Shown here: positions 2,611 through 56,370 of the stretch, piece by piece | Numbering within the stretch: position 1 is the stretch's first letter | How the letters are laid out: each line of letters opens with the position of its first letter | Notes under the pieces: model-generated | The model's input: only the letters and a program-made list of their open reading frames with translations | Database searches by the model: none | What the model was told of the DNA's origin: nothing | NCBI RefSeq assembly: GCF_000015205.1 | Contig: NC_008701.1 | Coordinates: forward strand, 434,001 to 498,000 | Direction: 5' to 3' | From: Pyrobaculum islandicum DSM 4184 | GTDB lineage: Archaea > Thermoproteota > Thermoprotei > Thermoproteales > Thermoproteaceae | DNA length: 64,000 bases | Position numbers and translations under genes: made by a program

Positions 2611-3009
2611 ATGTCTCGACAAGATGTCCAGAGACTTCTTGAGGAATATCAAGTCATTAATGAACTCTTAGCTACACTTCAAGCTCAACATACCACAGTA
2701 TCTGAGCTTCTTGAGGAGCTTACTACTGCACTAGATGGCGTAAGGCTGTTGAAAACGGAAGGCGGAGAGAGACTTGTTCATATAGGAGCCGGTCTTTTTG
2801 TATTGGGCACATTTAACGCAAGAGAAGTTCTCACTCCTCTTGGCGCCGGCTATCATGCCTTTTTAGATCTAGAAAATGCCGAAAGAATTCTAAAAGAGAG
2901 GATAGACGAGTACTCTAAGGTAAAGACCTCTCTTGAAGAAAATATAGAGAAGCTTATAGAAAGAGCGGCCCAAATTCGCCAGGTTCTAGAGAGGCTAGGT
3001 ATTAAGTAA
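2611..3009 (+). CDS. pfdA: Prefoldin subunit alpha
   Basis: A 132-residue protein with long N- and C-terminal heptad-rich helices (about 1-45 and 92-130) around a short beta segment with IGAGLFVLGTF, the standard prefoldin alpha design. Prefoldin is a hexameric (two alpha, four beta) cytosolic chaperone that delivers unfolded proteins to the thermosome, a subunit of which is encoded at 33 kb. The gene shares its last base with the ftsY start (ATG 3009), so it belongs to the same operon. Confidence 0.93.
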   Translation: MSRQDVQRLLEEYQVINELLATLQAQHTTVSELLEELTTALDGVRLLKTEGGERLVHIGAGLFVLGTFNAREVLTPLGAGYHAFLDLENAERILKERIDEYSKVKTSLEENIEKLIERAAQIRQVLERLGIK

Positions 3010-3932
3010 TGTTTGAAAAACTTAAAAAAACATTCTCTAAGTTTGTAGAGTCTGTAGTTAGTGTTGTAAAAGAAGAGAAACTTGATGAGCGCGATGCCGA
3101 AAAACTTCTCTCCGATTTATATTTCGACTTGGTAGATAGTGATGTTGCTGTTGATGTCGCCGACGCAGTAGTTGAAGAACTTAAGAAGAGGCTTGTGGGG
3201 ATTAAAGTGCCGAGATTTGGAGATAGAGAGGCCGCAGTTAAAAAAGCCGTATATGAAGCTCTACTCAATGTACTTGGCGACGTGCCTGACGTAGACTTCT
3301 ATAAAGAGGCAAGAGAAATGCTTGAAAAGACTAGGCCATTTGTCGTAATGTTTCTCGGGCCCAATGGCTATGGAAAAACCACTACGTTGGCAAAATTGGC
3401 ATTTCACCTACAGGAAATGGGGTTTAGAGTTGTAGCCGCTGCCGCCGATACGTTTAGAGCAGGAGCAAGAGAACAATTAGAGGAGCATGGAAGGAGAGTT
3501 GGATTTAGAGTTGTGGGAGGCGCCTACGGCTCTGACCCCGCTGCAGTTGCTTACGACGCCATTCAACACGCTAAATCCAGGGGGTACCACTTTGTACTTA
3601 TAGATACTGCAGGGCGTATGCACACTGATACAAACCTAATGGATGAGCTTAGAAAAATACAGCGCGTGGCAGAGCCCCACCGCTCAATTTTTGTATTTGA
3701 CGCACAGTTAGGCAACGAGGCATTAGAAATAGCTAAATATTACTCTAAATATGTCAATATAGATGGTATGATAGCTACTAAGGTAGATGCATATCCAAAA
3801 GGCGGCTCTATTCTTACCTTTATATATGTATTGAAGAGGCCAGTATATTTCCTAGGCGTTGGCCAAACTTACAGAGACTTGGTAAAGTTTTCCAAAGCAG
3901 AGTATATAAGTCAGCTATTAGCCTTAACCTAA
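3009..3932 (+). CDS. ftsY: Signal recognition particle receptor FtsY
   Basis: A 307-residue SRP-family GTPase. The N-domain helices cover about residues 1-100; G1 is GPNGYGKT (117-124); the insertion-box region carries AAADTFRAGAREQL; G3 is DTAGR near 198; G4 reads TKVD; the end has the GVGQTYRDL motif of FtsY. The acidic A domain of bacterial FtsY is absent, as usual in archaea. It receives ribosome-SRP complexes at the membrane. Position after prefoldin alpha and just upstream of secE and spt5 is a conserved archaeal arrangement. Confidence 0.96.
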   Translation: MFEKLKKTFSKFVESVVSVVKEEKLDERDAEKLLSDLYFDLVDSDVAVDVADAVVEELKKRLVGIKVPRFGDREAAVKKAVYEALLNVLGDVPDVDFYKEAREMLEKTRPFVVMFLGPNGYGKTTTLAKLAFHLQEMGFRVVAAAADTFRAGAREQLEEHGRRVGFRVVGGAYGSDPAAVAYDAIQHAKSRGYHFVLIDTAGRMHTDTNLMDELRKIQRVAEPHRSIFVFDAQLGNEALEIAKYYSKYVNIDGMIATKVDAYPKGGSILTFIYVLKRPVYFLGVGQTYRDLVKFSKAEYISQLLALT

Positions 3933-6416: not shown

Positions 6417-7448
6417 ATGCTCGCCATAGGCAAGAGGAGATATGTAAGAACTAAGCCATATCCACGGCGTAAGGTTAAAATAGTAGAAGAGGCCATAGAT
6501 TTATTAAAACGCTATCAATATATCTTTCTATTTGACCTACACGGGCTTTCTGCCAGAATTCTACACGAATACAGATATAGGTTAAGACCATATGGTCAGA
6601 TTAAGATTATAAAGCCTACGTTATTTAAAATCGCGTTTACTAAAGCCTACGGAGGTGTGCCAATAGATATCGCAGAAAAAGTCCGGGGCGAAATAGGCTT
6701 CTTTTTCACAAATGCCAACCCTGCAGAGGTTATTAAAATAATCGCTGAAAATAGCGTTAGAAGAGCCGCCAAGCCTGGAGACAAAGCGCCTTTTGATATA
6801 GTCGTCCCAGCAGGTCCTACAAACGCATCGCCAGGCCCTATAATTTCTAAATTCGGCAAATTGAAAATCCCCACTAGAGTTCAAGAAGGTAAGATCTGGA
6901 TTGTAAAAGATACTGTAGTTGCCAAAGCCGGTCAAGAGATTACGCCAGAAATAGCTGAGGTTCTCAGAGTAGTTGGGATAGAGCCTATATTTGAACAACT
7001 AAGGCTTATAGGCGTTATTTGGAAGGGCAAGAGATTTGTAGAAATAGCCGAGCTTGCCGTAGACGTCGGTAAGTACAAAGAGCTATTTGAAGCCGCAGCT
7101 GTTTATGCAAAGAATTTAGCGCTTAACATAGTCTACCCAACTAGAGAGGTATTGCAAATAGTTATACCGGCGGCTCATATGAGGGCAGTTGCTCTTGCAG
7201 CTAGACTCGGCGTAGTGACTAGAGAGACGTTACCAATGTTATTAAGCAGAGCAATTGCAGAGGCTAACTCCTTGGCGGCTTTAGTTGCATCTAAGGCACC
7301 GGAACTCGGTCTATCTGTGTCAACAGTGCCACAACCTACGTCACAACAACCGATACAACCTACTGAAACTCCAAAAGAGAGCGCCGAGGAGAAAAAGGAG
7401 GGACCTAGCGAGGAGGAAATCGCGGGATCTTTGGCGTCTCTCTTTTAA
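6417..7448 (+). CDS. rpl10: Ribosomal protein L10 (P0, uL10)
   Basis: An approximately 343-residue archaeal P0-type L10, longer than bacterial L10. The conserved KTMxR region is diverged. The segment PAGPTNASPGPIISKFGKLKIPTR is split here for length: PAGPTNASPGP then KFGKLKIPT, typical of the archaeal P0 middle domain. The C-terminus carries the P-protein ending: a Pro/Glu/Lys hinge, then EEEIAGSLASLF. A TATA-like ATTATTTAAAT at about 6387-6397 suggests a second promoter and favours ATG 6417 over TTG 6414. The gene abuts mevalonate kinase directly. Confidence 0.94.
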   Translation: MLAIGKRRYVRTKPYPRRKVKIVEEAIDLLKRYQYIFLFDLHGLSARILHEYRYRLRPYGQIKIIKPTLFKIAFTKAYGGVPIDIAEKVRGEIGFFFTNANPAEVIKIIAENSVRRAAKPGDKAPFDIVVPAGPTNASPGPIISKFGKLKIPTRVQEGKIWIVKDTVVAKAGQEITPEIAEVLRVVGIEPIFEQLRLIGVIWKGKRFVEIAELAVDVGKYKELFEAAAVYAKNLALNIVYPTREVLQIVIPAAHMRAVALAARLGVVTRETLPMLLSRAIAEANSLAALVASKAPELGLSVSTVPQPTSQQPIQPTETPKESAEEKKEGPSEEEIAGSLASLF

Positions 7449-8393
7449 ATGGTAAAGGTTTTTGCACCCGGCGTTGTAAAATTATTTGGAGAACACGCCG
7501 TTGTATACGGCAAGCCGGCTATAGCAACTACAATTGACAGAGGAGTTTTCATAGAGTGTGAAAAAAGCGACCGTCTCATTATCGAGTCAATAGGCACGCC
7601 ATCTACGCTTGTGTACCTCCCAGAAGAGGGGCGTTTAGAGGCTTTAGGCGCAGAACGTTTTTTTGCATATGTAAATACCGCTCTTAAAATTGCTAGAGAA
7701 AGATGGGGCAAGCTTAAGGCTAGGTTTTCTATAAAAAGCGAACTTCCGCCTAGCATAGGCGCTGCGACATCAGCCGCCGTTTCTGTAGGCATTTTAAAAG
7801 CATACTCTTTATGCGCCAACGTTGAAGTTAGTAAAGAGGAACTCGCCAAGCTTGGACATCAAGTGGAGCTTAATGTACAGGGAATTGCATCGCCTATGGA
7901 CACTACCGCTGTGGCGATAGGGGGGGTTTTAAAAATCTGGGCTCACCCCTTTCGAGTTGAAAAACTAGACGTGTCTCTTCCACAGTTTTACATAGTGGTA
8001 CTCCCCCGCAGAGGCACAACTGGCGAAATTGTAGCTGACGTAAAAGCTCTATTGGATAGACGGCGTTCTGCACAATCTGTAATTAATGCAATAGGCGAGG
8101 TGGTGGAGGAGGCAGAGGGGTGTTTAAGACGCGGCGATTTAAATTGTGTCGGAGAGTTAATGATTTTAAACAATTGGCTACTGGGAGCTCTTGGAGTTGT
8201 AGACAACAGAGTGATGACGCTCTTAGATTTACTTAAGACGTTTGTCTATGGCGGAAAAATTAGTGGAGCTGGCAGAGGCGGCGTGGTGTTAATACTACCT
8301 AAAGACGAGACCGTAGTAGAGAAAATACTTTCGGCAACCGGCTATACATATTTCAAGGTCTCTATTTCTAAGACAGGGGTGGTTGCCATATGA
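7449..8393 (+). CDS. mvk: Mevalonate kinase
   Basis: A 314-residue GHMP kinase. The N-terminal FAPGVVKLFGEHAVVYGKPA is the family start, PPSIGAATSAAVS (about 99-111) is the nucleotide-binding GHMP motif, and the end has GGKISGAGRGGVVLIL, the third motif. It phosphorylates mevalonate in the isoprenoid pathway that makes archaeal lipids. It follows L10 without a gap, and a small membrane protein gene overlaps its stop (ATGA at 8390-8393). Confidence 0.93.
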   Translation: MVKVFAPGVVKLFGEHAVVYGKPAIATTIDRGVFIECEKSDRLIIESIGTPSTLVYLPEEGRLEALGAERFFAYVNTALKIARERWGKLKARFSIKSELPPSIGAATSAAVSVGILKAYSLCANVEVSKEELAKLGHQVELNVQGIASPMDTTAVAIGGVLKIWAHPFRVEKLDVSLPQFYIVVLPRRGTTGEIVADVKALLDRRRSAQSVINAIGEVVEEAEGCLRRGDLNCVGELMILNNWLLGALGVVDNRVMTLLDLLKTFVYGGKISGAGRGGVVLILPKDETVVEKILSATGYTYFKVSISKTGVVAI

Positions 8394-8632
8394 CTCAGAT
8401 AGTGGGCCTCCTTGGGCTACTTCTAATTGCTTCGGCTTGGGCTGTCAATATAGCTCGCAAAAGCCCTCCCCCTCCGCTTGATCTCACCCTCTTGTATCTC
8501 CTGGGGAGTGTCGTACTTACGGTTTATGCATTAATACTTGGCGACATTATCTTCACAGTACTAAATGCTGTATCTAGTATGCTCTCCCTTATTAATCTCC
8601 TACGGGCACTACGTATTAAAAACCAAGGCTAA
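8390..8632 (+). CDS. Small membrane protein, unknown function
   Basis: An 80-residue protein that is mostly hydrophobic, with segments at about 3-20, 31-50 and 54-68, hence two to three membrane spans. A PPPPLDL loop sits between the first two. I recognise no family; the spacing of the spans is reminiscent of short archaeal inner-membrane proteins related to SemiSWEETs, but no motif supports this firmly. It overlaps the mevalonate kinase stop by 4 bases and ends 8 bases before the phosphorylase gene. Confidence 0.7.
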   Translation: MTQIVGLLGLLLIASAWAVNIARKSPPPPLDLTLLYLLGSVVLTVYALILGDIIFTVLNAVSSMLSLINLLRALRIKNQG

Positions 8633-8640
8633 ACACATAT

Positions 8641-9426
8641 ATGGCACAAAGACCTAAGATAGGAGCTAAGGCGTATCACCTCTTGTTGGCGCCTGGCGAA
8701 GTCCCGCGGTATGTACTTCTGCCGGGAGACCCAGGGAGAGTGCCGCTTATTGCAAAATATTGGGATAACGCCAGAGAGGTTGCAAAAAATAGAGAGTTTG
8801 TTACATGGGTGGGTACATATAGGGGCGTTCAAATTGGAGCCACTTCTACTGGAATAGGCTCTGGCTCTACCGCAATTGCTATCGAAGAGTTATTATACGC
8901 CGGCGCAGACACCTTTATTAGAGTGGGGACTACAGGCGCCTTACGGAGAGAAATAAAACTAGGCGACGTGATAATTGGAGCCGCCGCAGTACGTTTTGAT
9001 GGAGCTTCAAAATGGTATGCGCCGCCGGAGTATCCGGCTGTTGCCCATTGGTTAGTAGTAAAGGCGCTGATAGAGGCGGCGGAAGCTCTAAAAGTTAGAT
9101 ATCACGTCGGCATTGTAGCATCTACAGATTCGTTCTACGTTGGCCAAGAACGGCCTGGGTATGGCGGTTTTATGCCGCCGTGGGCAAAAGGGCTTATAGA
9201 AACTCTGAGAGCTCTCAGAGTACTATCTTTTGAAATGGAAAGCGCAACTATATACACCCTCTCCTCTATCTATGGCGCAAGAGCCGGCGGAGTTTACGCA
9301 GTAATTGCAAATAGAGAGACAGACGAATTTTCTCCAGAAGTCGGCGTTGAGGAGGCTGTAAGAGTCGCAAATGAGGCCGTGAGGATATTAGCTGAGTATG
9401 ATAATAAAGGTAGTTCAAATACGTGA
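8641..9426 (+). CDS. udp: Nucleoside phosphorylase, probable uridine phosphorylase
   Basis: A 261-residue PNP/UDP family enzyme. Seen are YVLLPGDPGRVP (phosphate-binding loop), GTYRGVQIGATSTGIGSGSTAIAIEEL outlined by STGIGSGS, IRVGTTGAL, and FEMESATIYTL (the catalytic Glu-Met-Glu region). It splits nucleosides with phosphate to give a base and ribose 1-phosphate. The SFEMES region and the overall N-terminus favour uridine phosphorylase over purine nucleoside phosphorylase, though substrate range is inferred. The BMP-type nucleoside importer encoded at 10.5-15 kb could feed it. Confidence 0.88.
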   Translation: MAQRPKIGAKAYHLLLAPGEVPRYVLLPGDPGRVPLIAKYWDNAREVAKNREFVTWVGTYRGVQIGATSTGIGSGSTAIAIEELLYAGADTFIRVGTTGALRREIKLGDVIIGAAAVRFDGASKWYAPPEYPAVAHWLVVKALIEAAEALKVRYHVGIVASTDSFYVGQERPGYGGFMPPWAKGLIETLRALRVLSFEMESATIYTLSSIYGARAGGVYAVIANRETDEFSPEVGVEEAVRVANEAVRILAEYDNKGSSNT

Positions 9427-9634
9427 CACAGCAATTATAGAGCTTAGCCTGCCGCCTTGTGCCGACGTATTTACTTTCAAGATTAGCAGTAGAGAACTAG
9501 AAATTTGCGGCAAGACGTACGTCCTAAGTGAGGAGATAGGCGAATTTAAAAGGGGGCTTCTCCTATTGGAGAAAACCCCATTTTTTATCGAGTGTGACGA
9601 GGGGAATTGCATAGCTGCTAAGGCGCAAGTATAA
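9398..9634 (+). CDS. Conserved-looking small protein, unknown function
   Basis: A 78-residue soluble protein that starts inside the last 29 bases of the phosphorylase gene and uses another frame. It has alternating beta-like segments (TAIIELSLPP, FTFKISSRELEICGKTYVL, GLLLLEKTPFFIECD) and four cysteines, but no metal motif I recognise. The overlap and same direction suggest translation from the phosphorylase transcript. The following gene begins 24 bases later. Confidence 0.6.
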   Translation: MIIKVVQIRDTAIIELSLPPCADVFTFKISSRELEICGKTYVLSEEIGEFKRGLLLLEKTPFFIECDEGNCIAAKAQV

Positions 9635-9658
9635 AAATGCCGCCGGTTAGCTAAAACC

Positions 9659-10087
9659 ATGGAGGTGCTTGTGGCAGCATATAATGTAAGTTCTGTGCCA
9701 AAGATGTTAGAACTAGCCAAAGTTACATATGGCTTTGGCTTAAAACGATTTATACTCATTAAGGTGTTTGGAGCGGCGGCGCAACAGATAGGAGACCTCT
9801 TTAAGCTTGCGTTTAAAATGGGCGGAGAGGTATTAGTATTTAACGACATAGCCGATGCAGTGGATATTTTAAAACCAGATATTATATATGCATTAGGGCG
9901 CCCCGACAGAGATACAAAACCTATAGAGAAGGTAGATGGGAAAATTATGTTATTAGTACATGGGGCGGACTTGTCGTTTTCGCCTAGAGAACTACCCCCA
10001 GGCGCAATTATGAGCCACGCCGTGGCAAAAGACATAGGCTCAACAGGACAGCTTGCGATTGCGCTATATAGATTACTAGGCGCCTAG
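9659..10087 (+). CDS. Conserved hypothetical protein, possible SPOUT-like fold
   Basis: 142 residues of alternating alpha and beta segments: MEVLVAAYNVSSVPKMLELA, FILIKVFGAAAQQIGDLFKLA, PDIIYALGRPDRDT, IMLLVHGADLSFSPRELPPGAIMSHA. The C-terminal Gly-Ser-Thr-Gly-Gln loop followed by a helix recalls the knot region of SPOUT RNA methyltransferases, but this is weak. It is tail-to-tail with hsp20, and the two stop codons interlock in CTAG at 10084-10087. Confidence 0.6.
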   Translation: MEVLVAAYNVSSVPKMLELAKVTYGFGLKRFILIKVFGAAAQQIGDLFKLAFKMGGEVLVFNDIADAVDILKPDIIYALGRPDRDTKPIEKVDGKIMLLVHGADLSFSPRELPPGAIMSHAVAKDIGSTGQLAIALYRLLGA

Positions 10088-10431
10088 CCACGGACTGGGA
10101 TTTTTATTTCCTCTTCTCTGATTTTCTTAGCCGTAATTATAAGCACGCCGTTTTTATACAAAGCAGATGCTGTAGAGGGGTCTATCCTAACTGGCAGACG
10201 TATAAGTTTTGAATATTTTCTATCTCCTCTAGCGCCCTCGGCCTTAATTAACGAGCCGTCTTTTGTTACCGAAAGAGATATATCGCTAGCCTCAAGCCCC
10301 GGCATATCTATCTCTATCCTAATCCCGTCGCCTTCTTCAACGAGATGATAGTCTCTCTTTTCTTTAATTTCCTCAATCATTTTTTGAAACGACTTTGTCA
10401 CCTCTTCTATAGCTCTTTTGAAATCTTCCAT
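10084..10431 (-). CDS. hsp20: Small heat shock protein Hsp20
   Basis: A 115-residue alpha-crystallin-type chaperone. The N-terminal arm is short and helical (residues 1-27); the core has GIRIEIDMPGLEASDISLSV, RLPVRIDPSTASALYKNGVLIITA (the A-x-x-x-n-GVL signature), and the C-terminal IKIPV is the IxI/V anchor used for oligomer assembly. It holds unfolding proteins in the cytosol. It is transcribed toward the end of the preceding plus-strand gene and lies just downstream of the ABC importer genes on the same strand. Confidence 0.92.
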   Translation of the reverse strand: MEDFKRAIEEVTKSFQKMIEEIKEKRDYHLVEEGDGIRIEIDMPGLEASDISLSVTKDGSLIKAEGARGDRKYSKLIRLPVRIDPSTASALYKNGVLIITAKKIREEEIKIPVRG

Positions 10432-10457
10432 ATCTCTAGCTACAGTTTGTATTTTAA

Positions 10458-11357
10458 TTATTCTCTTCTAAAGACTTTGCCGACGGCCCTCGGCGGCTTA
10501 GCCCTCCCAATTACTCCCGCAACTATCAACAACGTTGCGATATACGGAATCATCCTAGTTATTTCATATCTAGCTACGCCCACTGTCTGTAGCCAATATG
10601 ACAAAGCGTCAAAAAAGCCAAATATAAAAGCTCCGACAATGGCCAACAGGGGATTCCAATTGGAGAATACAACGTTGGCAAGCGCTATAAACCCCCTCCC
10701 TGCAGAAATCTCCTTTGTAACGACAGAGAGATACGCGGTGCTTAGATACGCCCCGGCTAAAGATGCCAATGCCGACCCAATAATCGTAGAGAGTAACCTC
10801 ACCTTGTATACATCTATGCCCATGTTATACGCCGAGTCTGGATCCTCGCCACACGCCCTAATTATAATGCCCACTCTAGATTTAAATAAGACATACCACA
10901 TGATCCCCGCAACGATAAATGTAAAAACAGTAACCCACATGGGATCTGCCTTTGCCCAATCTGGTACTTGTTTATATCCAGCCACACCCCAATAAGCTTG
11001 TATACCGTAGGCCACAGCCCCCGCCGCAAATAGGTTTATTGCAACTCCGCTGATAATCTGATCGCCGGCTAGATATGTTGAGATATAGCCATGTATCAAT
11101 CCCACTGAGGCGCCTATGGCAATAGCAGCCGACATAGCAATTATCGGCCATACGAGGTCTGGCAACCACATCCCCACGCGGTAACGGAGATAATCTACCG
11201 CTAGAGGAGCGACAAACGCACCCAGTAACATTATCCCCTCCAGCCCTATGTTAACAACACCGCTACGCTCCATTAGAATCTCGCCTAAAGAAGCGAGAAG
11301 AATCGGCACAGATGCCAAAAGCGCTTGTATGATTAGAAGAAGGAGTAGTTCTGTCAT
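10458..11357 (-). CDS. ABC transporter permease (BMP-type nucleoside importer, subunit 2)
   Basis: A 299-residue integral membrane protein with about eight to nine hydrophobic spans. It has the branched-chain/ribose permease family features LASLGEILMERSGVVNIGLEGIMLLGAF near the N-terminus, and the cytoplasmic EDPDSAYNMGIDVYKVR coupling loop. Its start overlaps the end of the second permease gene (ATGA), giving the order BMP-ATPase-permease-permease. By analogy with bacterial Nup/BMP systems the substrate is probably a nucleoside. Confidence 0.9.
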   Translation of the reverse strand: MTELLLLLIIQALLASVPILLASLGEILMERSGVVNIGLEGIMLLGAFVAPLAVDYLRYRVGMWLPDLVWPIIAMSAAIAIGASVGLIHGYISTYLAGDQIISGVAINLFAAGAVAYGIQAYWGVAGYKQVPDWAKADPMWVTVFTFIVAGIMWYVLFKSRVGIIIRACGEDPDSAYNMGIDVYKVRLLSTIIGSALASLAGAYLSTAYLSVVTKEISAGRGFIALANVVFSNWNPLLAIVGAFIFGFFDALSYWLQTVGVARYEITRMIPYIATLLIVAGVIGRAKPPRAVGKVFRRE

Positions 11358-12358
11358 GTCTTTTTTAACATCTGTATAGCTAATAACAATATTATAACGC
11401 CTTGTATTATCCTCACAAACTCAAAGGGCGTTCCAGCCTCTATTTGCATATGTCTCGCACCTTCTTGTAAAACGCCGAGGAATAACGCCGCAATAGCCAC
11501 GCCTATGGGATGTCCGCGGCCTAACATAGCTGCGGTAATTCCGTCGAAACCTAAGCCATAAACATTGGCGAGATTTCTCATTAAGCTATAAGACGGCGGC
11601 TTGGCGACCACTTGCATAACGCCGGCAACGCCCGCCGTTAATGCGCCTATTAAAAACGACAGCATTATCGACCGCATAGGCTCAATGCCGTAGGACTTAG
11701 CTACTATTGGGTTTTGACCGCTTATAGAAATTCGATAGCCCCATACACTGTATTTAACAAAGATATAAACAAACAAAGCTATTATATAAGACAACGGAAC
11801 TGCCGCCGTGAGATCTGTCCCAGCTACTAGCGGCGTTAGACGCGCTGGCTCAGGTGTTTTTATAGACTCCTCTGGCTGAAGAGGATTTGTAAATACTGTA
11901 GACACAGCCATTATTACAACCCAATACGCAATCCAATTCATCATTATAGTAGTTATCACCTCGTTTACCCCTCTCCAGATTTTAAGAAGAGCAGGTACTA
12001 AAGACCAAACACAAGCTAAAGTCAACCCTATAAACAACGCAAGAGGTAACGCCAAACTACTCTTTGTAATATATGCCGCAACTACAGCGCCCAAAGCCCC
12101 CATATATACTTGGCCCTCTGCACCTATGTTAAACAAACCTGCTCTTAAACCTACGGCGAAGGTAAGACCGGTTAGAACTATTGGCGCCGAAAAGGCCAGT
12201 GCAGAAAAGAAATATGTATAGTCTAAGAGCGGGGTAAATAACATAGATCTATACGACATTATTGGGTCGTATCCAGAGATCCACATAACTACTGCGCCTA
12301 TGGCAAAGGCGGTGACAAGCGTAAGAACTACGTCTAACAATGGAAGAGGTATCCTCAT
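11354..12358 (-). CDS. ABC transporter permease (BMP-type nucleoside importer, subunit 1)
   Basis: A 334-residue membrane protein with some eight to ten spans. LTGLTFAVGLRAGLFNIGAEGQVYMGALGA is represented by GLFNIGAEGQVYMG, the family motif; the later loop NPIVAKSYGIEPMR is the likely ATPase contact. It overlaps both the ATPase gene (start) and the second permease (end) by 4 bases, so the three form one tightly coupled unit. Confidence 0.9.
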   Translation of the reverse strand: MRIPLPLLDVVLTLVTAFAIGAVVMWISGYDPIMSYRSMLFTPLLDYTYFFSALAFSAPIVLTGLTFAVGLRAGLFNIGAEGQVYMGALGAVVAAYITKSSLALPLALFIGLTLACVWSLVPALLKIWRGVNEVITTIMMNWIAYWVVIMAVSTVFTNPLQPEESIKTPEPARLTPLVAGTDLTAAVPLSYIIALFVYIFVKYSVWGYRISISGQNPIVAKSYGIEPMRSIMLSFLIGALTAGVAGVMQVVAKPPSYSLMRNLANVYGLGFDGITAAMLGRGHPIGVAIAALFLGVLQEGARHMQIEAGTPFEFVRIIQGVIILLLAIQMLKKT

Positions 12359-13794
12359 AACCCTGCCATCTTCTTACCCACTAGGTCTACCCTCATCTCT
12401 TCTACAGGGCCTAAAGCCACTATTTTGCCTCTGTAGATAACCGCGATGGTGTCCGCCAATTTGTATGCCTCATCTAAGTCGCTTGTCACAAGTAAAATGC
12501 CTGCTCCGTTATTCCTCGCCTTCATAAGCAACTGATGGACATACTCTGTCGTAGCTACGTCTAAGCCGCGTGTAGGTTGATGCGCTATTATTAGCTTAGC
12601 CCCCCTACTTAGCTCACGCCCAACTACAAGTTTTTGTTGATTCCCACCCGATAGGTGACGTACAAAAGCCCTGGGGCCAGGAGCTACTATGCCAAATTCT
12701 TTAATTAGCTTTGTCGCAAATTGTTTCGCCAAAGTCCATGAAATTATCCCTCTTTTTGCAAACTCACTCTCTTTACCAATTATCGCATTTTCAACAAGCG
12801 TAAATTCTGGTATCAACGCTTTTCTCAACCTATCGTCGGGGATATAAGCCAGTCTGCCGTATATTTTGATCACACCCCTTCTCCACCTCCTTAAGCCTAC
12901 TATAGCTTCAACTAAATGTTCCTGACCGTTGCCTTCTACACCAACAACGGCCAAAATCTCCCTCTCTCTCACTTTAAAACTCACGCCTTGTACGACAGCT
13001 CTGCCGCCCTCGTAGATCCATAAATCTTCTACTTCAAGCACGAAGTTTTCCCCCGGTTTCTGAATTCTTTCGACACGTTCTATTTTTAACTCGCCGACCA
13101 TAGATTCAACTAATCCCCTGGGGTCATAGGGAGGAAGAAATTCTGCAACTTTTACGCCTCTTCTCAATACTACGACGCGATCAGCTATTTCCAATACCTC
13201 AGGTATTTTATGAGTGATATAGACTATCGATTTGCCAAGGCTCCTCAATTTTTTTATTACTTGGAAAAGAGATCTCACCTCTGGAGGCGAGAGCACTGTG
13301 GTAGGCTCGTCTAATATAAGCAAATCCGCGCCCCAGTAGAGAGCCTTTACTATTTCAACTCTCTGTCTTACACCAAGGGGCAACTCCTCCACATCTCTAT
13401 CCCACTCAATTTCAAATCCAAGCTCTTCCGATATCTTAACAGCTCTTTCTTTTAACACCGTTGATATAGGTTTTAAACTTGCTCCCTCTAAAATAGCCAG
13501 ATTTTCCAAAGCTGTAAGTCCAGGTATAAGAGAGGGGTGTTGGTGAACCATAGCAATTCCAAGCTTTAATGCGTCTCTCGCACTTCTAAACCTCACCCTC
13601 TTGTCGTTTACATATATCTCGCCAGAGGTAGGTCTGTAAACTCCCGCCAATATCTTCATTAGAGTTGTTTTCCCAGCCCCATTTTCGCCTAACAATGCCA
13701 AAATCTCGCCTGGAAAAATTTCAAGAGAGACACCCCTAAGGGCGTATGTACCATCTGAAAAAATCTTGTGTATTTCCCTGAGAAAAACCTTCAT
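12355..13794 (-). CDS. ABC transporter ATPase, two-domain (BMP-type nucleoside importer)
   Basis: 479 residues with two nucleotide-binding domains. The first has a normal Walker A (GENGAGKTT, about 36-44), LPLGVRQRVEI signature and Walker B LLILDEPTTVL. The second has a degenerate Walker A (GVEGNGQEH, without Lys), signature LSGGNQQKL and Walker B-like LIIAHQPTRGLD, where the usual DEP is replaced by HQP. One active and one degenerate site is standard in sugar/nucleoside two-domain ATPases. It lies one base after the binding-protein gene. Confidence 0.93.
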   Translation of the reverse strand: MKVFLREIHKIFSDGTYALRGVSLEIFPGEILALLGENGAGKTTLMKILAGVYRPTSGEIYVNDKRVRFRSARDALKLGIAMVHQHPSLIPGLTALENLAILEGASLKPISTVLKERAVKISEELGFEIEWDRDVEELPLGVRQRVEIVKALYWGADLLILDEPTTVLSPPEVRSLFQVIKKLRSLGKSIVYITHKIPEVLEIADRVVVLRRGVKVAEFLPPYDPRGLVESMVGELKIERVERIQKPGENFVLEVEDLWIYEGGRAVVQGVSFKVREREILAVVGVEGNGQEHLVEAIVGLRRWRRGVIKIYGRLAYIPDDRLRKALIPEFTLVENAIIGKESEFAKRGIISWTLAKQFATKLIKEFGIVAPGPRAFVRHLSGGNQQKLVVGRELSRGAKLIIAHQPTRGLDVATTEYVHQLLMKARNNGAGILLVTSDLDEAYKLADTIAVIYRGKIVALGPVEEMRVDLVGKKMAGL

Positions 13795-46685: not shown

Positions 46686-47999
46686 TTACGTGCCCAACTC
46701 CCAGGAGGTGAGATATTGTTTCTGTTCTTCGGTTAATTCTTCTATTTCGATACCCATAGTTTTGAGCTTAAGCCGCGCTACTTCGCGGTCAAGTTCGTCG
46801 GGTAATTTATAGACGTCAATAGCTAGCTTATTTTTTACAATATGCTCGGCGGCGAGGGCTTGGTTTGCAAAAGATAGATCCATGACCTCAGAGGGATGGC
46901 CCTCTGCGGCTACCAAATTCACTAGCCGGCCCTCCCCGATGAGATAGACACGTTTGCCATTTGGTAGCGTGTATTCCTCTAGGTACTGTCTTATTAACTT
47001 CTTTGAGATTGCTACACGTTCAAGACCTGCGACGTCGATTTCTACATTAAAGTGACCAGCGTTTGCGAGAACTGCGCCGTCTTTCATCTTAAAAATATGG
47101 CCTAGATTTATTGCTCTTATATTGCCCGTGGCTGTTATAAATATATCGCCTATCTCAGCTGCCTTGTCCATAGGCATAACTTCAAACCCGTCAAAGACAG
47201 CCTCCAGAGCCCTCACGGGGTCTACCTCTACCACAATTACTCTCCTTGCGCCGAGGCCTCTAGCCCTCATTGCGATTCCTCTGCCAACCCAACCATACCC
47301 GGCAATAACCACGTTTTTGCCGGCTATGAGGAGGTTTGTTGCCCTCAAGACGCCGTCCCAAGTGGACTGGCCTGTTCCATATCTGTTGTCAAATAGATAC
47401 TTCGTATAGGACTCGTTAACTGCTATGATTGGGTAGAGAAGCTTTCCAGCCCTCTTCAGCGCGCGGAGCCTTAACACACCTGTGGTGGTCTCCTCGGTGC
47501 CCCCGCGGAGTCCGGCCACTAATTTATCGGGGTCTATAGACCCCGCAGTCTCTAGTACGTACTCAATTGTCTTGTCTCGTGCTTCATGCTTAAGCTTATG
47601 TATTGTCACTGTTAGGTCTGCACCGTCGTCTAGAGTAATCGTGGGGTAAAAAGACAACGCGAAACCAATGGCATTGTAATAATCTCGTTCAGACATCCCA
47701 CGCCATGCGTAGACATATGCGCCTTCTTGTGCCAAAGCGGCGGCTACATCATCTTGAGTTGAAAGAGGGTTAGATGGTATAACTACAACTCGCGCTCCTC
47801 CTGCGATTAAAGTACGTACTAGAACTCCTGTCTCTTTTGTGACATGTAAACAAGCGGCTATCGTCTGACCTGCAAGAGGTTTCTCTTTTTCAAAACGCTT
47901 CCTAATTTCTAACAATACGGGCATATTTCTCTCAGCCCAGTACAACTGTTCCCTACCTCTTTCGGCTAGCGAGAGATCTTTTACCTTAGATTCTGTCAT
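46686..47999 (-). CDS. ahcY: S-adenosylhomocysteinase
   Basis: About 437 residues from ATG 47999 ([15 protein letters not shown]). [24 protein letters not shown] is outlined by [15 protein letters not shown]-binding [20 protein letters not shown] is outlined by [27 protein letters not shown] is outlined by [10 protein letters not shown]; and GHFNVEID and LAAEHIVKN follow. It splits S-adenosylhomocysteine into adenosine and homocysteine, keeping methylations going. The longer reading from 48014 is unlikely because a TATA box lies 25 bases before 47999. Confidence 0.95.
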
Positions 48000-48020
48000 C
48001 GGCATATAGAACATAAAATT

Positions 48021-48049: not shown

Positions 48050-48895
48050 ATGGTACCAAGAGTACGGAGTTACATACCTGGGCTCGACGAAATTTTATAC
48101 GGCGGTATACCAGAGAGAAGCGTTGTTTTATTAAGCGGAGGGCCGGGGACAGGCAAGTCTATACTTGGCAAACAATTTCTCTATAACGGTTTAAAAAGGG
48201 GAGAGCCAGGCGTTTTTGTAGCACTTGAAGAACACCCCGTTGCCGTCCGCCGTAGCTTTCGCCACTTTGGATGGGATATTTCTCAATATGAGCGCGAGGG
48301 GAAATTTGCAATAATAGACGCGTTTACGGGTGGCGTCGGTACTGCGGCACAACGGGAAAAATACATAGTGAAGCAGGTAGACGACGTCTATGAATTAAGC
48401 GATGTGTTGAGACAAGCAATTAAAGACATCGGCGCTCGTCGCGTGGTAATAGATTCAGTATCTACCCTCTACTTAACAAAACCAGCTGTGGCTAGGGCTA
48501 CGATTATGACACTAAAGAGAGTTATAGCAGGTCTTGGATGTACTGCGTTTTTCGTATCTCAAGTCTCGGTGGGAGAACGCGGTTTTGGCGGCCCCGGCGT
48601 AGAACACGCAGTAGACGGCATAATCCGTCTCGACTTAGACGAGATAGACGGCAAGTTACACAGGTCGATCATTGTGTGGAAAATGCGAGATACAAAACAC
48701 TCGATGTTGCGCCACCCCATGGAGATAAAAGACGGCGGGATAGAGGTGATGTGGGACAGATATCTAAAGATTGTAGGAAATACCGTTAAAATAGAGCCGA
48801 TCTCTAAGGAGGAGGTAGAGGCTATGCGAAAGGCTGTGGAAGAGGCCGAGAAACAGCCAGCTCAGAGAAAAGTTGAAATAGAGGTGGAGGATTAG
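48050..48895 (+). CDS. KaiC-like RecA-superfamily ATPase
   Basis: 281 residues, single RecA-like domain. [29 protein letters not shown] is outlined by Walker A GGPGTGKS (30-37); [19 protein letters not shown] is a KaiC feature; [11 protein letters not shown] is Walker B; FVSQVSVG and VEHAVDGII follow. Archaeal KaiC-like proteins are linked to signalling and surface structures but remain mostly uncharacterised. ATG 48050 is favoured over TTG 48038 by the TATA position. The HTH gene follows after 4 bases. Confidence 0.9.
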
Positions 48896-48899
48896 GGCC

Positions 48900-49325
48900 A
48901 TGGCGGAGATTCCGTTAAAGCCGACGGGACGTGAGGAGATTAGAAAGCTGGAGTCAGCGCTATTAGTAATGTCTTTGTTTGACAAAGAGACTCTTGAAGC
49001 AATTAAAGACCCAGCCACTAGAGTGACTTGGGTAGACTCGCTTTATACCGCCGCGGCTGCCTTAGCTAGAGAGAGAGCTGGCATTCCTACTTCTAAAATA
49101 GCTGAAGAGCTTGGAGTCACCGAGGCTACTGTAAGACGCCATTTAAAAGGTGAAACCAGGGCTGGACAATTAGTGAAGAAAGTATACGATAGGTTATCTA
49201 AAGAAGGCTTTAAGGTAGAATTGCCGACAGAACTAGCCGAAGAGTGTACAAAACAGATAACTGAACTGAAAGATAAAATAGAAAAAGTAAAGAAGGCGCT
49301 TGCAGAAATTCAAAGCTGGCTTTAG
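48900..49325 (+). CDS. HTH regulator paired with KaiC-like ATPase
   Basis: 141 residues. A helix-turn-helix at about 60-80 (IPTSKIAEELGVTEATVRRHLKG) follows a helical N-terminus; the C-terminus (TELAEECTKQITELKDKIEKVKKALAEI outlined by KQITELKDKIEKVKKAL) is a coiled coil for dimerisation. It is probably co-transcribed with the KaiC-like ATPase and may report its state to DNA. Regulated genes are unknown. Confidence 0.85.
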   Translation: MAEIPLKPTGREEIRKLESALLVMSLFDKETLEAIKDPATRVTWVDSLYTAAAALARERAGIPTSKIAEELGVTEATVRRHLKGETRAGQLVKKVYDRLSKEGFKVELPTELAEECTKQITELKDKIEKVKKALAEIQSWL

Positions 49326-49330
49326 TATAA

Positions 49331-49996
49331 ATGATTACTATTTTAAACGAGGTAAAAAGCTTGGGAGTTTTCGTAGCTTATGACGTAGTATATGGGGTAG
49401 ACAATACGAGATATACGTCGCAACTTGAAGAAGAGATTAATAGAATCGTGGAAGAGATTAGAGGGGCTCTCTCTTTAGAAACGCTAAAAGATCACCACAT
49501 AATTAGAGCGTATCGCGACTTCTATTGGAAGACTCTTAAAATAGATCCAACAAAGCAACGGCCTGCGCAAGAGGCCCTCCTCAGGAGAGTGTTGCGCGGG
49601 GAGTCTCTGCCGAGGATAAACCCCGTTGTAGATGCTGGAAATGCCATATCAATAAAATATATAGTGCCCATAGGGCTTTATGACATTTCGAAGATCCACG
49701 GAAAAACCCTTCGCATTAGGCTGTCAAGAAAAGGAGAGGTCTTCCACCCGATAGGAGGTCAGCCGCATGAGCTAGATGATCAGATAGTCCTTGCGTCAAA
49801 TGACCAAATACTCCATGTGTATCCATATAGGGATAGTGTAGAGACAAAAATAGACGTGTCAACAAAAGACGTGTTAATCGTAGTGGCAGGAGTTCCGGGA
49901 GTTGAGGAGGAGCGGTTAATAAATGCAACGTTACACCTCCGCAGACTTTTATCGCTTTTGGGAGGTGTCGCCGATGGCGATGTGAGATTAGCTTAA
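49331..49996 (+). CDS. B3/B4 tRNA-binding domain protein
   Basis: 221 residues of the free-standing B3/B4 family related to a domain of phenylalanyl-tRNA synthetase beta. Seen are WKTLKIDPTKQRPAQEALLRRVLRGESLPRINPVVDAGNAISIKY, outlined by KIDPTKQRPAQEALLRR and INPVVDAGNAISIKY, then HPIGGQPHELDDQI. Such proteins may edit misacylated tRNA, but this is unproved. It converges on the cPGS-like gene (9-base overlap). Confidence 0.87.
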   Translation: MITILNEVKSLGVFVAYDVVYGVDNTRYTSQLEEEINRIVEEIRGALSLETLKDHHIIRAYRDFYWKTLKIDPTKQRPAQEALLRRVLRGESLPRINPVVDAGNAISIKYIVPIGLYDISKIHGKTLRIRLSRKGEVFHPIGGQPHELDDQIVLASNDQILHVYPYRDSVETKIDVSTKDVLIVVAGVPGVEEERLINATLHLRRLLSLLGGVADGDVRLA

Positions 49997-51289
49997 TCTT
50001 TCTAAAAAGGCATTTACAAGATCCTTTACTGTCGGCCCCTCTACTATCTTTAACCTCCAGCTAACTCTTGCAATGGGTTTGTTTATGCTTATTACTCTCT
50101 CTATTTTAGCTGGCGTGGCTACAAGTACGATATCTACATCAATATGTTTAATTACGGCTTCTAAATCTCTTCTCTGTTCAAGAGTGTAGCCTAGGCTTGG
50201 CAATACAGGCCCTATATTATACTCTTCATATATCTTCTTTATAGTGCCGACAGCATAGGGTCTCGGATCTACAACCTCTGCTCCGTATTTTACCGCAGCT
50301 ATATAGCCTGCGCCATATGGCAAACCGCCATGAGTAACTGTAGGCGCGTCCTCAATTATAAGCACGCGTTTACCCGTTATATCTTTATCTACATAAACCT
50401 CTAAGTCTGCCTTTGTTATAGATGCCCTTGGATTTACCCGTCGGACGTTACTAACGACCTTTTCGACATTTTCTCTACTGGCATCACTAACCTTAGTTAT
50501 GATTACTGCATCTGCAAGGCGGAGGTTTACCTCGCCGGGAAATGAGTTAACCTCATGGCCTGCTCTACGCGCGTCGGTTACAACAATCATATAATTAGGT
50601 CTAAAGAATGGGAAATCGTTGTTACCGCCATCCCACAGTATAATATCTCCAAGACGCTCTGCTTCTCTTAATACAGCGCTGTAATCTACACCGGCTAACA
50701 CAGGGACCCCTATCTCCACATATTGCTCAAACTCCTCTCTTTCTTCAAAGGTCAGTTTGTCTAGATCCTCCGGCCTTTTAAATACCTCAACTATGCTCTC
50801 TTCTAGATCTCTATATGGCATTGGGTGTCTCACTACGGCAACTCTATACCCCTTGGCAGAGAGCTCTCGTACCACCTCCTTAGAAACAGTAGATTTGCCG
50901 GCGCCTGTTCTAGTCGCCGTGACAGCTATGACAGGTTTTATAGAATTGAGATATGTGTCATTAGGCCCGTGAATTTTAAATGTGGCTCCGCTGGCAAGCA
51001 CGGCCGAGATTATATGCCCAACCTCATCATATAACAAATCACTATACGCAAGAACAGCCTCATCTACGCGAAGCTCTTTTAGAAGCCGCGTAAGCTCCTC
51101 GTAGCTTCTCCATGTATATATAGGTATGCCCTCAGGTATGCCAGAGAGCGAAGGCGGATATCTCCTATTTGGCAAAGGAATTTGTGTCATTAAAAACGCA
51201 ACTACTTTATAATCTTTAGACCCTCTGTATACCATGTGATACACATGGAAGTCTCTCCCTGCAGCTCCTATAATTGCGACTCTACGCAT
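49988..51289 (-). CDS. P-loop GTPase similar to cyclic 2,3-diphosphoglycerate synthetase
   Basis: 433 residues. N-terminal Rossmann-like VAIIGAAGRDFHVYHMVYRGS outlined by GAAGRDFHVY; Walker A TATRTGAGKST (about 127-137); ILWDGGNNDFPFF and VTDARRAGHE; ITKVSDAS as a G4-like motif; THGGLPYGAGYIAA. This set matches archaeal proteins annotated as cPGS or GTPase. In methanogens such an enzyme makes a thermoprotective cyclic phosphate; whether this organism makes it is unknown. Confidence 0.85.
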   Translation of the reverse strand: MRRVAIIGAAGRDFHVYHMVYRGSKDYKVVAFLMTQIPLPNRRYPPSLSGIPEGIPIYTWRSYEELTRLLKELRVDEAVLAYSDLLYDEVGHIISAVLASGATFKIHGPNDTYLNSIKPVIAVTATRTGAGKSTVSKEVVRELSAKGYRVAVVRHPMPYRDLEESIVEVFKRPEDLDKLTFEEREEFEQYVEIGVPVLAGVDYSAVLREAERLGDIILWDGGNNDFPFFRPNYMIVVTDARRAGHEVNSFPGEVNLRLADAVIITKVSDASRENVEKVVSNVRRVNPRASITKADLEVYVDKDITGKRVLIIEDAPTVTHGGLPYGAGYIAAVKYGAEVVDPRPYAVGTIKKIYEEYNIGPVLPSLGYTLEQRRDLEAVIKHIDVDIVLVATPAKIERVISINKPIARVSWRLKIVEGPTVKDLVNAFLERLS

Positions 51290-53835: not shown

Positions 53836-56370
53836 ATGTATACAGTTGTTAAACTCAGCGGCTTATTGGAGCCTTTCTCACTTGAGAAATTAAGACTATC
53901 AATTCGACAGGCAGCGTCTGAGGTGGGCGTTGAGGTAGACGGCGAGGTGGAGATAAACATAAATAGGGACGTCAACTCGTGGGAGTTGGCGGATCTAGTC
54001 CAGCTTGAGTTGCTCAAGCGCGCCATAGATAGGCCAGAGTTGGCGGAGGTGGCTAAGTCCCACCTCCTGGGCAGGATCTACAAGGAGGTCTTCGGCAAGG
54101 ACTTCCTCAAGCACAAGTCGGGCTATCTAGAGCGGGCTCTCGCGAGGTATAGACAGCTGGCGGAGGCCGGCCTGCTGAAGGAGGAGTCTCTACGCCTGCT
54201 GGAGGCCTTCGAGCCCAGGCCCGACTTCGACAGATCGCTCAGCTACAACGCCCTCCGCCTCTTCACCAACGGCAACTACGCCCTGAGGGGCGGGGACTTC
54301 AGGCTGGCCGAGACCCCCAGCATGGCGGCTTGGCGCGTCGCCACAGCCGTCGCGCGGGATGTGGAGACGGCGAGGAGGTACTACGACGCAATCACGTCAC
54401 TGAGGATAGTGCCGGCGTCGCCCTTCTGGTTCAACGCCTGGACTAAGAAGGAGATGTTCGCCTCGTGCTTCACGCTGGAGGTGGAGGACTGCCTATCCTC
54501 CCTCTCCCACCCAGGCCGCTTCTGTATCTACGACGCCCTTGCCTACTCCGGCATAATACAGCAGTTGGGCGGCGGCGTCGGCTACGACTTCTCCCTGCTG
54601 AGGCCGGAGGGCGACGTGGTGAGGGGGAGCGTCGGCGTTGCCTCAGGCCCAGTCAGCTTCATGAAGCTGTTCGACACCAACGTCGAGGTGATTAAACAGG
54701 GGGGCAAGAGGAGGGGCGCCCAGATGGGCACGCTACACGTGTGGCACCCCGACGTGAGGAAGTTCATAAAGGCCAAGACGGGGGAGCTCAAAGACGCCCA
54801 CCTCCAGAACTTCAACATCTCGGTCTTCGTAGACGACGCCTTCATGGAGAAGGCGCTGGGTCTCGACAAAGACCCGAAGTACCCCCTGGTGAACCCGAGG
54901 ATATATCTGGAGAGGACCGGGAGGAAGCCCGTGGAGGAGACCCGAGTCAGCCCGCCGCAGGAGGCGGTGGCCGGTTGGGTAGACGCGAGGGAGCTCTTCC
55001 GCGAGATCGCGGAGGGCGCCTGGGACTCGGGAGACCCCGGCGTGATATATAAGGACAACCTAAACGCCTCCAACCCCCTCCTCGGCGAAGAGATAGAGGT
55101 GGCCGGCCACAGGTTTAGATACATCTGGAGAGCCGTCAACCCCTGCAGTGAGACCCACCAAAACCCCTTCGAGGTGTGTAACCTCACCCACATAAACCTA
55201 GTCAAATTCGCCAGGGAGTGCGCCGGGAAGACCTTCGAGGAGAAGCTGGCGTGTATAGACTGGGAGGGTCTCGCCGAGGCGGCCCGCCTAGGCACTAGGT
55301 TTCTCGACGACGCGATAGACCGTAGTTACACGGGGATAGAGGTGATAGACGAGATGAACCGTGCCACGAGGAAGAACGGCCTCGGCATCATGGGCTTCGC
55401 CGAGCTGTTGATAAAACTGGGCATCCCCTACGCCAGTTGGGAGGCGGTGGAGCTGATAAACAGAATAATGGCGTGGATATACGTCAACGCCCTCGACGAA
55501 TCCGCCGAGTTGGCCAGGGAGAGGGGGCCGTTTAAGTTCTTCGAGAAGTCGGCGTACGCCAGAGGCGAGATACCGGTTCTGAAGTTCCAGGACTACGTCT
55601 GGGGCAGGTGGGAGCGCGTCAAAGGGGCCTTCCCGCCTGAGCTAAGGGAGGCAGGCGACCGCCTCCGCGAGATAACCATGAGGACGAGGGAGTGGCTGAG
55701 GCCGAGGCTTGAGGCGCTGAGGGAGAAGGTCAAAGGCGGCGTGAGGAACTCGGTGGTGTTGTCCATAGCCCCCACGGGCAGAACCAGCATACTGGCCGGC
55801 ACCACAAGCGGCGTGGAGCCCGTCTTCGCCCTGGCCTTCATAAGGAACGTGACCGTCGGCACCCTCATAGAGTACTACTGGCCGGCGGTGGAGTGGCTGA
55901 GGGCGAGGGGCCTCTGGACGCCCCAGGTGAGGAAGACGGTGGAGGAGACCGGCATGCTCAAGGACGCCCCTCTGCCGGAGGAGGTGAAGCACCTCTTCGC
56001 CACCGCCATGGAGATCGGCTGGCTGTGGCACGTCCTAATGCAGGCGAGCGCACAACAGTGGGTGGATCAGGGCATATCCAAGACCATAAACATGCCCGCC
56101 AATGCCCCAAAGGAGGACGTATACTGGGCTTTCGCCCTCGCGTGGGCCCTCGGCGTTAAGGGCATAACGGTGTATAGAGACAAGTCCAAGTCTGTGCAGG
56201 TGATATACACAGGGCTGAAGCAGGAGATAAAGAAGAAGCTGGCCGACACGAAGATAATAGTGAAACCCATCGCCCTGGACTCAGCCATAGAGGAAGTCGC
56301 CGAGAAGGCCAAGCTGAAGGCCCTAGAGGAGGGCAAAGACCCCTACTGCAAAACTGGGGAGTGTGGTTAG
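53836..56370 (+). CDS. nrdJ: Ribonucleotide reductase, class II (B12-dependent)
   Basis: 844 residues: ATP-cone N-terminus, then GAQMGTLHVWHPDVRKFI outlined by GTLHVWHPDVRKF, the radical-site triad N435-C437-E439 in NPCSETHQNPFEVCNL, GLGIMGFAELL, APTGRTSILAGTTSGVEP outlined by PTGRTSILAGTTSG, and the redox tail Cys838-Cys843 (CKTGEC). It converts ribonucleotides to deoxyribonucleotides using adenosylcobalamin. No intein interrupts it. From about 53990 to the stop the coding sequence is strongly GC-rich (40/60 on line 55681), unlike both neighbours. Confidence 0.95.
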   Translation: MYTVVKLSGLLEPFSLEKLRLSIRQAASEVGVEVDGEVEININRDVNSWELADLVQLELLKRAIDRPELAEVAKSHLLGRIYKEVFGKDFLKHKSGYLERALARYRQLAEAGLLKEESLRLLEAFEPRPDFDRSLSYNALRLFTNGNYALRGGDFRLAETPSMAAWRVATAVARDVETARRYYDAITSLRIVPASPFWFNAWTKKEMFASCFTLEVEDCLSSLSHPGRFCIYDALAYSGIIQQLGGGVGYDFSLLRPEGDVVRGSVGVASGPVSFMKLFDTNVEVIKQGGKRRGAQMGTLHVWHPDVRKFIKAKTGELKDAHLQNFNISVFVDDAFMEKALGLDKDPKYPLVNPRIYLERTGRKPVEETRVSPPQEAVAGWVDARELFREIAEGAWDSGDPGVIYKDNLNASNPLLGEEIEVAGHRFRYIWRAVNPCSETHQNPFEVCNLTHINLVKFARECAGKTFEEKLACIDWEGLAEAARLGTRFLDDAIDRSYTGIEVIDEMNRATRKNGLGIMGFAELLIKLGIPYASWEAVELINRIMAWIYVNALDESAELARERGPFKFFEKSAYARGEIPVLKFQDYVWGRWERVKGAFPPELREAGDRLREITMRTREWLRPRLEALREKVKGGVRNSVVLSIAPTGRTSILAGTTSGVEPVFALAFIRNVTVGTLIEYYWPAVEWLRARGLWTPQVRKTVEETGMLKDAPLPEEVKHLFATAMEIGWLWHVLMQASAQQWVDQGISKTINMPANAPKEDVYWAFALAWALGVKGITVYRDKSKSVQVIYTGLKQEIKKKLADTKIIVKPIALDSAIEEVAEKAKLKALEEGKDPYCKTGECG

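Follow-up and report, generated by a model that had tools for sequence, protein, structure and literature searches.

How did a single gene in an AT-rich part of the Pyrobaculum islandicum chromosome come to have a body far richer in G+C than all its neighbours? The gene is nrdJ (53836..56370; all coordinates refer to the plus strand of the window, the whole stretch of 64,000 nucleotides analysed here), which encodes a protein of 844 amino acids (TIGR02504, PF02867, PF00317) and was the only ribonucleotide reductase (RNR) copy in the 1,826,402-bp genome. Its product belongs to class II, and is predicted to be adenosylcobalamin-dependent, by its full-length match to TIGR02504 (682.9 bits against a cut-off of 399.95, model positions 13-606 of 606). 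GC climbed from about 0.42 to about 0.62 within this open reading frame and dropped back at its end (0.60-0.64 approximately over 54001-56100, 0.39-0.47 on either side). The GC3 of the nrdJ coding sequence was 0.82, while the other 62 ORFs of the window had a mean of 0.42 (standard deviation 0.04, maximum 0.51); nrdJ lies so far outside this range that chance was excluded as the source of the jump, and the GC step described by the sequence-only reading was real. Its restriction to the RNR gene held for the 64-kb window, in which nrdJ was the sole gene with such a jump, but not for the genome, in which GC-rich segments were common elsewhere. The orthologues were also compared: RNR GC3 was mildly above that of the neighbouring genes in all relatives (z = 0.8-3.2), and stood out less in every one of them than in P. 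islandicum (z = 10.5).

The main genomes compared with P. islandicum (G000, the genome of the window) were G030, presumably the sister species Pyrobaculum neutrophilum (1,769,823 bp), and G041, which we take to be Thermoproteus tenax (1,841,542 bp). Pyrobaculum sp. WP30 (G032) and Thermoproteus sp. CP80 (G038) were also included, with one genome per species in the comparisons, and statements about the whole P. islandicum genome are based on 26 sampled 20-kb stretches together with the window. A genome size of 1.84 Mb has been published for T. tenax (PMC3189178).

The locus was syntenic and collinear with G030, with an unbroken gene order. DNA identity to G030 was 71.5 ± 5% per 500 bp over the approximately 45 kb of the window that could be aligned, but 96-98% in the RNR gene. 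This high identity began inside the gene: the native 5' part (codons 1 to approximately 48, 53836..53978, GC3 0.51) was about 70% identical to G030, like the flanks, and the same value was obtained for codons 1-51, whereas codons 52-805 were about 97% identical. A two-state HMM placed the 5' recombination junction in an interval of about 14 bp (53977..53990), stable under four parameter settings, and the imported GC-rich tract (GC3 approximately 0.85, about 97% identical to G030) at 53991..56262. The 3' junction interval was longer (about 90 bp, 56263..56354) and mosaic, with a native-like patch of about 35 bp (56263-56300) followed by donor-like sequence, a detail that vanished under the strictest of the four settings. 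The last 5 codons or so were as divergent from G030 as the flanks, that is, native-like; both junctions were within the gene, at drops in homology. The earlier proposals that the composition switches at 53940-53990, inside the gene, and that the first 40-50 codons are native agreed with the junction located by divergence from the sister species, although by GC3 alone the best 5' change point was earlier, at about codon 28. The proposed end of the jump at the stop codon needs a small correction, as the actual end falls just before the stop.

Phylogenies, suggested as a check of the same reading, set the body of the gene apart in depth from its flanks. In protein trees of flanking genes (46686-48014, 49988-51289 and serS), P. 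islandicum and G030 were sisters with branches of 0.093 and 0.10; in the tree of RNR residues 121-805, the branches leading to P. islandicum and G030 were only 0.004 and 0.013 respectively. P. islandicum grouped with Pyrobaculum in the tree of codons 1-51, an alignment too short for an exact position. With G041 as the third sequence to polarise them, the changes private to P. islandicum in the tract were 24 towards A/T and 1 towards G/C (14 and 9 respectively for those private to G030), indicating that the incoming allele was GC-rich, the receiving genome AT-rich, and that the import is now being worn towards the composition of its host.

The body of nrdJ was recently replaced, and the sequence comparisons leave us in little doubt as to how: approximately 2.3 kb inside the chromosomal gene was almost certainly exchanged in place, by homologous recombination, for the allele of a GC-rich P. 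neutrophilum-like sister lineage, much as the proposal of a copy from a GC-richer relative had it. A second RNR copy or the insertion of a mobile element was ruled out by the single copy and the unbroken gene order, and a distant GC-rich donor by the closest allele being that of the sister lineage. Codon selection, for instance for expression, might have made the gene GC-rich with no transfer at all, and the mildly elevated RNR GC3 of all relatives is in keeping with it; the probability of this explanation is nevertheless negligible, refuted as it is by the abrupt change of identity at either end of the gene, by near-identity to G030 at synonymous sites in the body but not in the neighbouring genes, and by the contrast in z with the relatives, to which the switch inside the gene and the A/T-ward private changes are added.

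Exchange between the two lineages was also seen elsewhere. Five kb upstream of the RNR gene, a tract of about 700 bp (48590..49310) had the reverse direction: the orthologous part of G030 (L043, approximately 2970-3690) was AT-rich (GC 0.43-0.47 amid a neighbourhood of about 0.59) and about 93% identical to P. islandicum. Taken together with the forward tracts, it makes the introgression between P. islandicum and G030 two-way. The reverse tract takes in the last part of a KaiC-like ATPase gene together with the small HTH gene that follows it. Among the sampled stretches, a 12-kb GC-rich segment (L050 1-12031, G000:C1:220001-232031) was 98% identical to G030 and is a later exchange than that of the RNR, and a GC-rich collinear tract of about 6 kb (L062, approximately 7000-13166) was 90-95% identical, approximately, with flanks at 68-77%. 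At L050 12020-12285, approximately, there was an element of about 250 bp, of which G030 and G041 have many diverged copies. GC in the sampled 20-kb stretches (L049-L074) ranged from 41% to 58%, with AT-rich stretches (41-47%) interspersed among GC-rich ones (52-58%), a patchwork which suggests large-scale mixing of lineages. From these alignments, allelic exchange with the sister lineage is common in the P. islandicum genome.

The RNR gene of G030 is interrupted, immediately ahead of the Cys codon of the NPC motif, by an intein of 397 aa that has splicing and LAGLIDADG_3 domains. We take this Cys to be the catalytic (thiyl-radical) cysteine of RNR; related inteins were found at the same nrdJ site in G031, G032 and G038. 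A search of the P. islandicum genome with the G030 intein gave no match and no remnant anywhere. In P. islandicum, the empty insertion point (55143/55144), past which codon 437 for this Cys is the first (55144..55146), falls within the tract (53990-56263), about 25 bp or less from its midpoint. On its own, the spanning of the site by the tract is a weak sign of homing, given that most of the gene lies in the tract. The symmetry of the tract round the site was likewise downgraded as proof: the conserved part of the gene has the site near its middle.

The sequence beside the empty site was altered. Codons 438-441 (55147..55158) read AGT GAG ACC CAC (SETH) in P. islandicum instead of GCC GAG ACC GTC (AETV), the motif of nearly all relatives; the five private base changes were in codons 438 (AGT for GCC) and 441 (CAC for GTC), at +4 to +14 from the insertion point. 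Only 1 of 398 genomes of the phylum, P. islandicum itself, coded for SETH in this position. When the 62 differences in the 2,259 bases of the tract were shuffled, five differences within 18 bases at the insertion point were obtained in 0 of 20,000 shuffles, and the same cluster anywhere in the tract in 3.5% of 2,000. There was also an excess of P. islandicum-private changes in a wider sub-region, codons 426-603 (55111..55644; 17 of the 25 private codons, scan P 0.0002), which may correspond to a second conversion round the intein site or to an older layer.

Other members of the family showed exchange in the same gene. The intein of Thermoproteus sp. CP80 (G038) was 93% identical in DNA to that of Pyrobaculum sp. 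WP30 (G032), and codons 360-632 of the G038 gene were G032-like, the remainder resembling its own genus (permutation P <0.0005), which is a clear case of co-conversion around the nrdJ intein site. G041 combined Thermoproteus-type codons 1-120 with a G030-like body (from codon 123 to codon 836, approximately) and had no intein. In a related family (G002, G004 and G005), the most divergent 60-codon window was 455-515, across the insertion site at about codon 475, in all 3 comparisons (permutation P of 0/2000, 0/2000 and 0.019). The RNR of G025 was 100% identical to that of the intein-bearing G018 up to about codon 445 and approximately 57-70% identical from just before the intein site, either a real conversion or an assembly chimera; it was excluded as evidence because the assembly is fragmented and holds a second RNR piece. 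Exchange was also scanned for across 17 kb in 78 pairs of genomes, with a correction for both pair and position and on the same loci that prompted the idea of a hot spot; this gave 31 signals, 24 of them in the RNR gene. Of the others, four were bins of the reverse tract, one was a bin shared by two sister genomes and two came from a pair of nearly identical genomes; sahH and serS, equally conserved neighbours, showed no such cross-genus tracts. According to these comparisons, nrdJ is an intein target and probably an exchange hot spot in this family.

What started the exchange at nrdJ is a separate question, and we give about an even chance to intein homing, with the intein later lost or excluded. 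In this scenario, the intein of the donor allele would have supplied a homing endonuclease that cleaved the resident gene, itself free of an intein, at the NP|C site. Repair of the break would have used the donor allele as template and copied a long stretch of adjoining host-gene sequence as well. The intein would not have been kept, either because its loop was excluded during repair or because it was lost through a second, short conversion, and its loss or exclusion may have left behind the 5-base change that P. islandicum alone shows next to the empty site. Recurring conversion at the NP|C site would account for the exchange of nrdJ even between genera. In favour of homing, the intein of the closest allele (G030) sits at the catalytic Cys and has both splicing and LAGLIDADG domains, the tract spans the empty site and the five private base changes lie at it. 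Same-site conversion was also found in other lineages (codons 360-632 of G038 and the divergence peak of G002, G004 and G005), 24 of the 31 exchange signals fell in this gene, and G041 has a G030-like body. Against it, P. islandicum is without an intein, and so is G041 with its G030-like body; since the intein is absent and the site altered in P. islandicum, homing is a step that we infer and do not see. The two lineages also exchanged other tracts without an intein (48590-49310 and the tracts of about 6 kb and 12 kb), and the centring of the tract may reflect no more than the position of the site, halfway along the conserved portion of the gene, both junctions being at drops in homology. A further step, for which the case is tentative and the chances rather low, is to read the tract as the trace of an intein that has come and gone, whose loss or exclusion left a small repair scar; the scar would also have changed the target site, and may shield the gene from re-invasion.

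The main rival account is ordinary introgression from an intein-free P. neutrophilum-like cell, which we consider a real possibility, though somewhat short of probable. The intein would then be uninvolved, that of G030 having been gained later within its own clade, and the 5-base change would be a separate local event. Two-way allelic exchange without inteins, tract ends that match the homology drops at the ends of the gene and an intein-free P. islandicum all fit this account; taken alone, however, it leaves unexplained why, within the 17-kb stretch, cross-genus tracts fall in nrdJ and not in the equally conserved sahH and serS, and why base changes lie exactly at the insertion point. The SETH motif might also be a putative adaptation, in which substitutions in the homing target were selected to stop the endonuclease from cutting, so that the imported allele is immune. 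We think this unlikely, though two things count in its favour: none of the other genomes among the 398 shares the five altered bases at +4 to +14, and site variants of another archaeal intein are known to hinder invasion, in that case because splicing, not cutting, is blocked (PMC10643990). Against such an adaptation, substitutions in the target site are tolerated by LAGLIDADG enzymes (PMC10643990), and the pattern of three bases changed in codon 438 and two in codon 441 resembles a single templated or repair event more than selection acting step by step; a template for such an event was found neither in the loci compared nor in the 398 genomes of the phylum. Adaptation of the motif is an add-on to homing or introgression and not an alternative to the replacement.

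From a GC step as sharp as this one, lying within a core gene, one can read which way two sister hyperthermophiles exchanged DNA and, in relative terms, how recently. The mosaic nrdJ alleles in other lineages suggest that one cause is shared: a mobile intein dragging host-gene sequence between species. If homing is true, the gene trees of intein-bearing essential genes would record the travels of the parasite as well as host ancestry; if the tract is its footprint, inteins would carry variants of essential genes from one archaeal species or genus to another with no intein left behind. Mosaic genes and intein co-conversion are both already known kinds of event. The specific nrdJ mosaic, its polarity and the private change at the empty intein site are new, and a literature search found no paper on this nrdJ locus.

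Compared with intragenic allelic replacement between related species, the likeness lies in an in-place exchange inside a core gene, with sharp junctions and gene order kept; the difference is that the donor was approximately 40 percentage points of GC3 away from the recipient in this region, and it is this gap that makes the event visible in composition and its direction clear. The case resembles intein homing with co-conversion (PMC4071816, PMC10643990) in the gene, in the insertion site, which is that of the LAGLIDADG inteins of the relatives, and in a tract that spans the site, but here the intein is absent and the insertion site altered. The insertion site appears, from the profile alignments, to be the same as in the NCBIfam model PRK08332 (NF006207) of the intein-bearing vitamin B12-dependent RNR: the G030 intein aligned to model positions 860-1241, and residue 436 of the NrdJ of the window at position 1241. 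Unlike the proteins of that model, the gene of the window has an empty site, and scored 351 bits against a cut-off of 2400.
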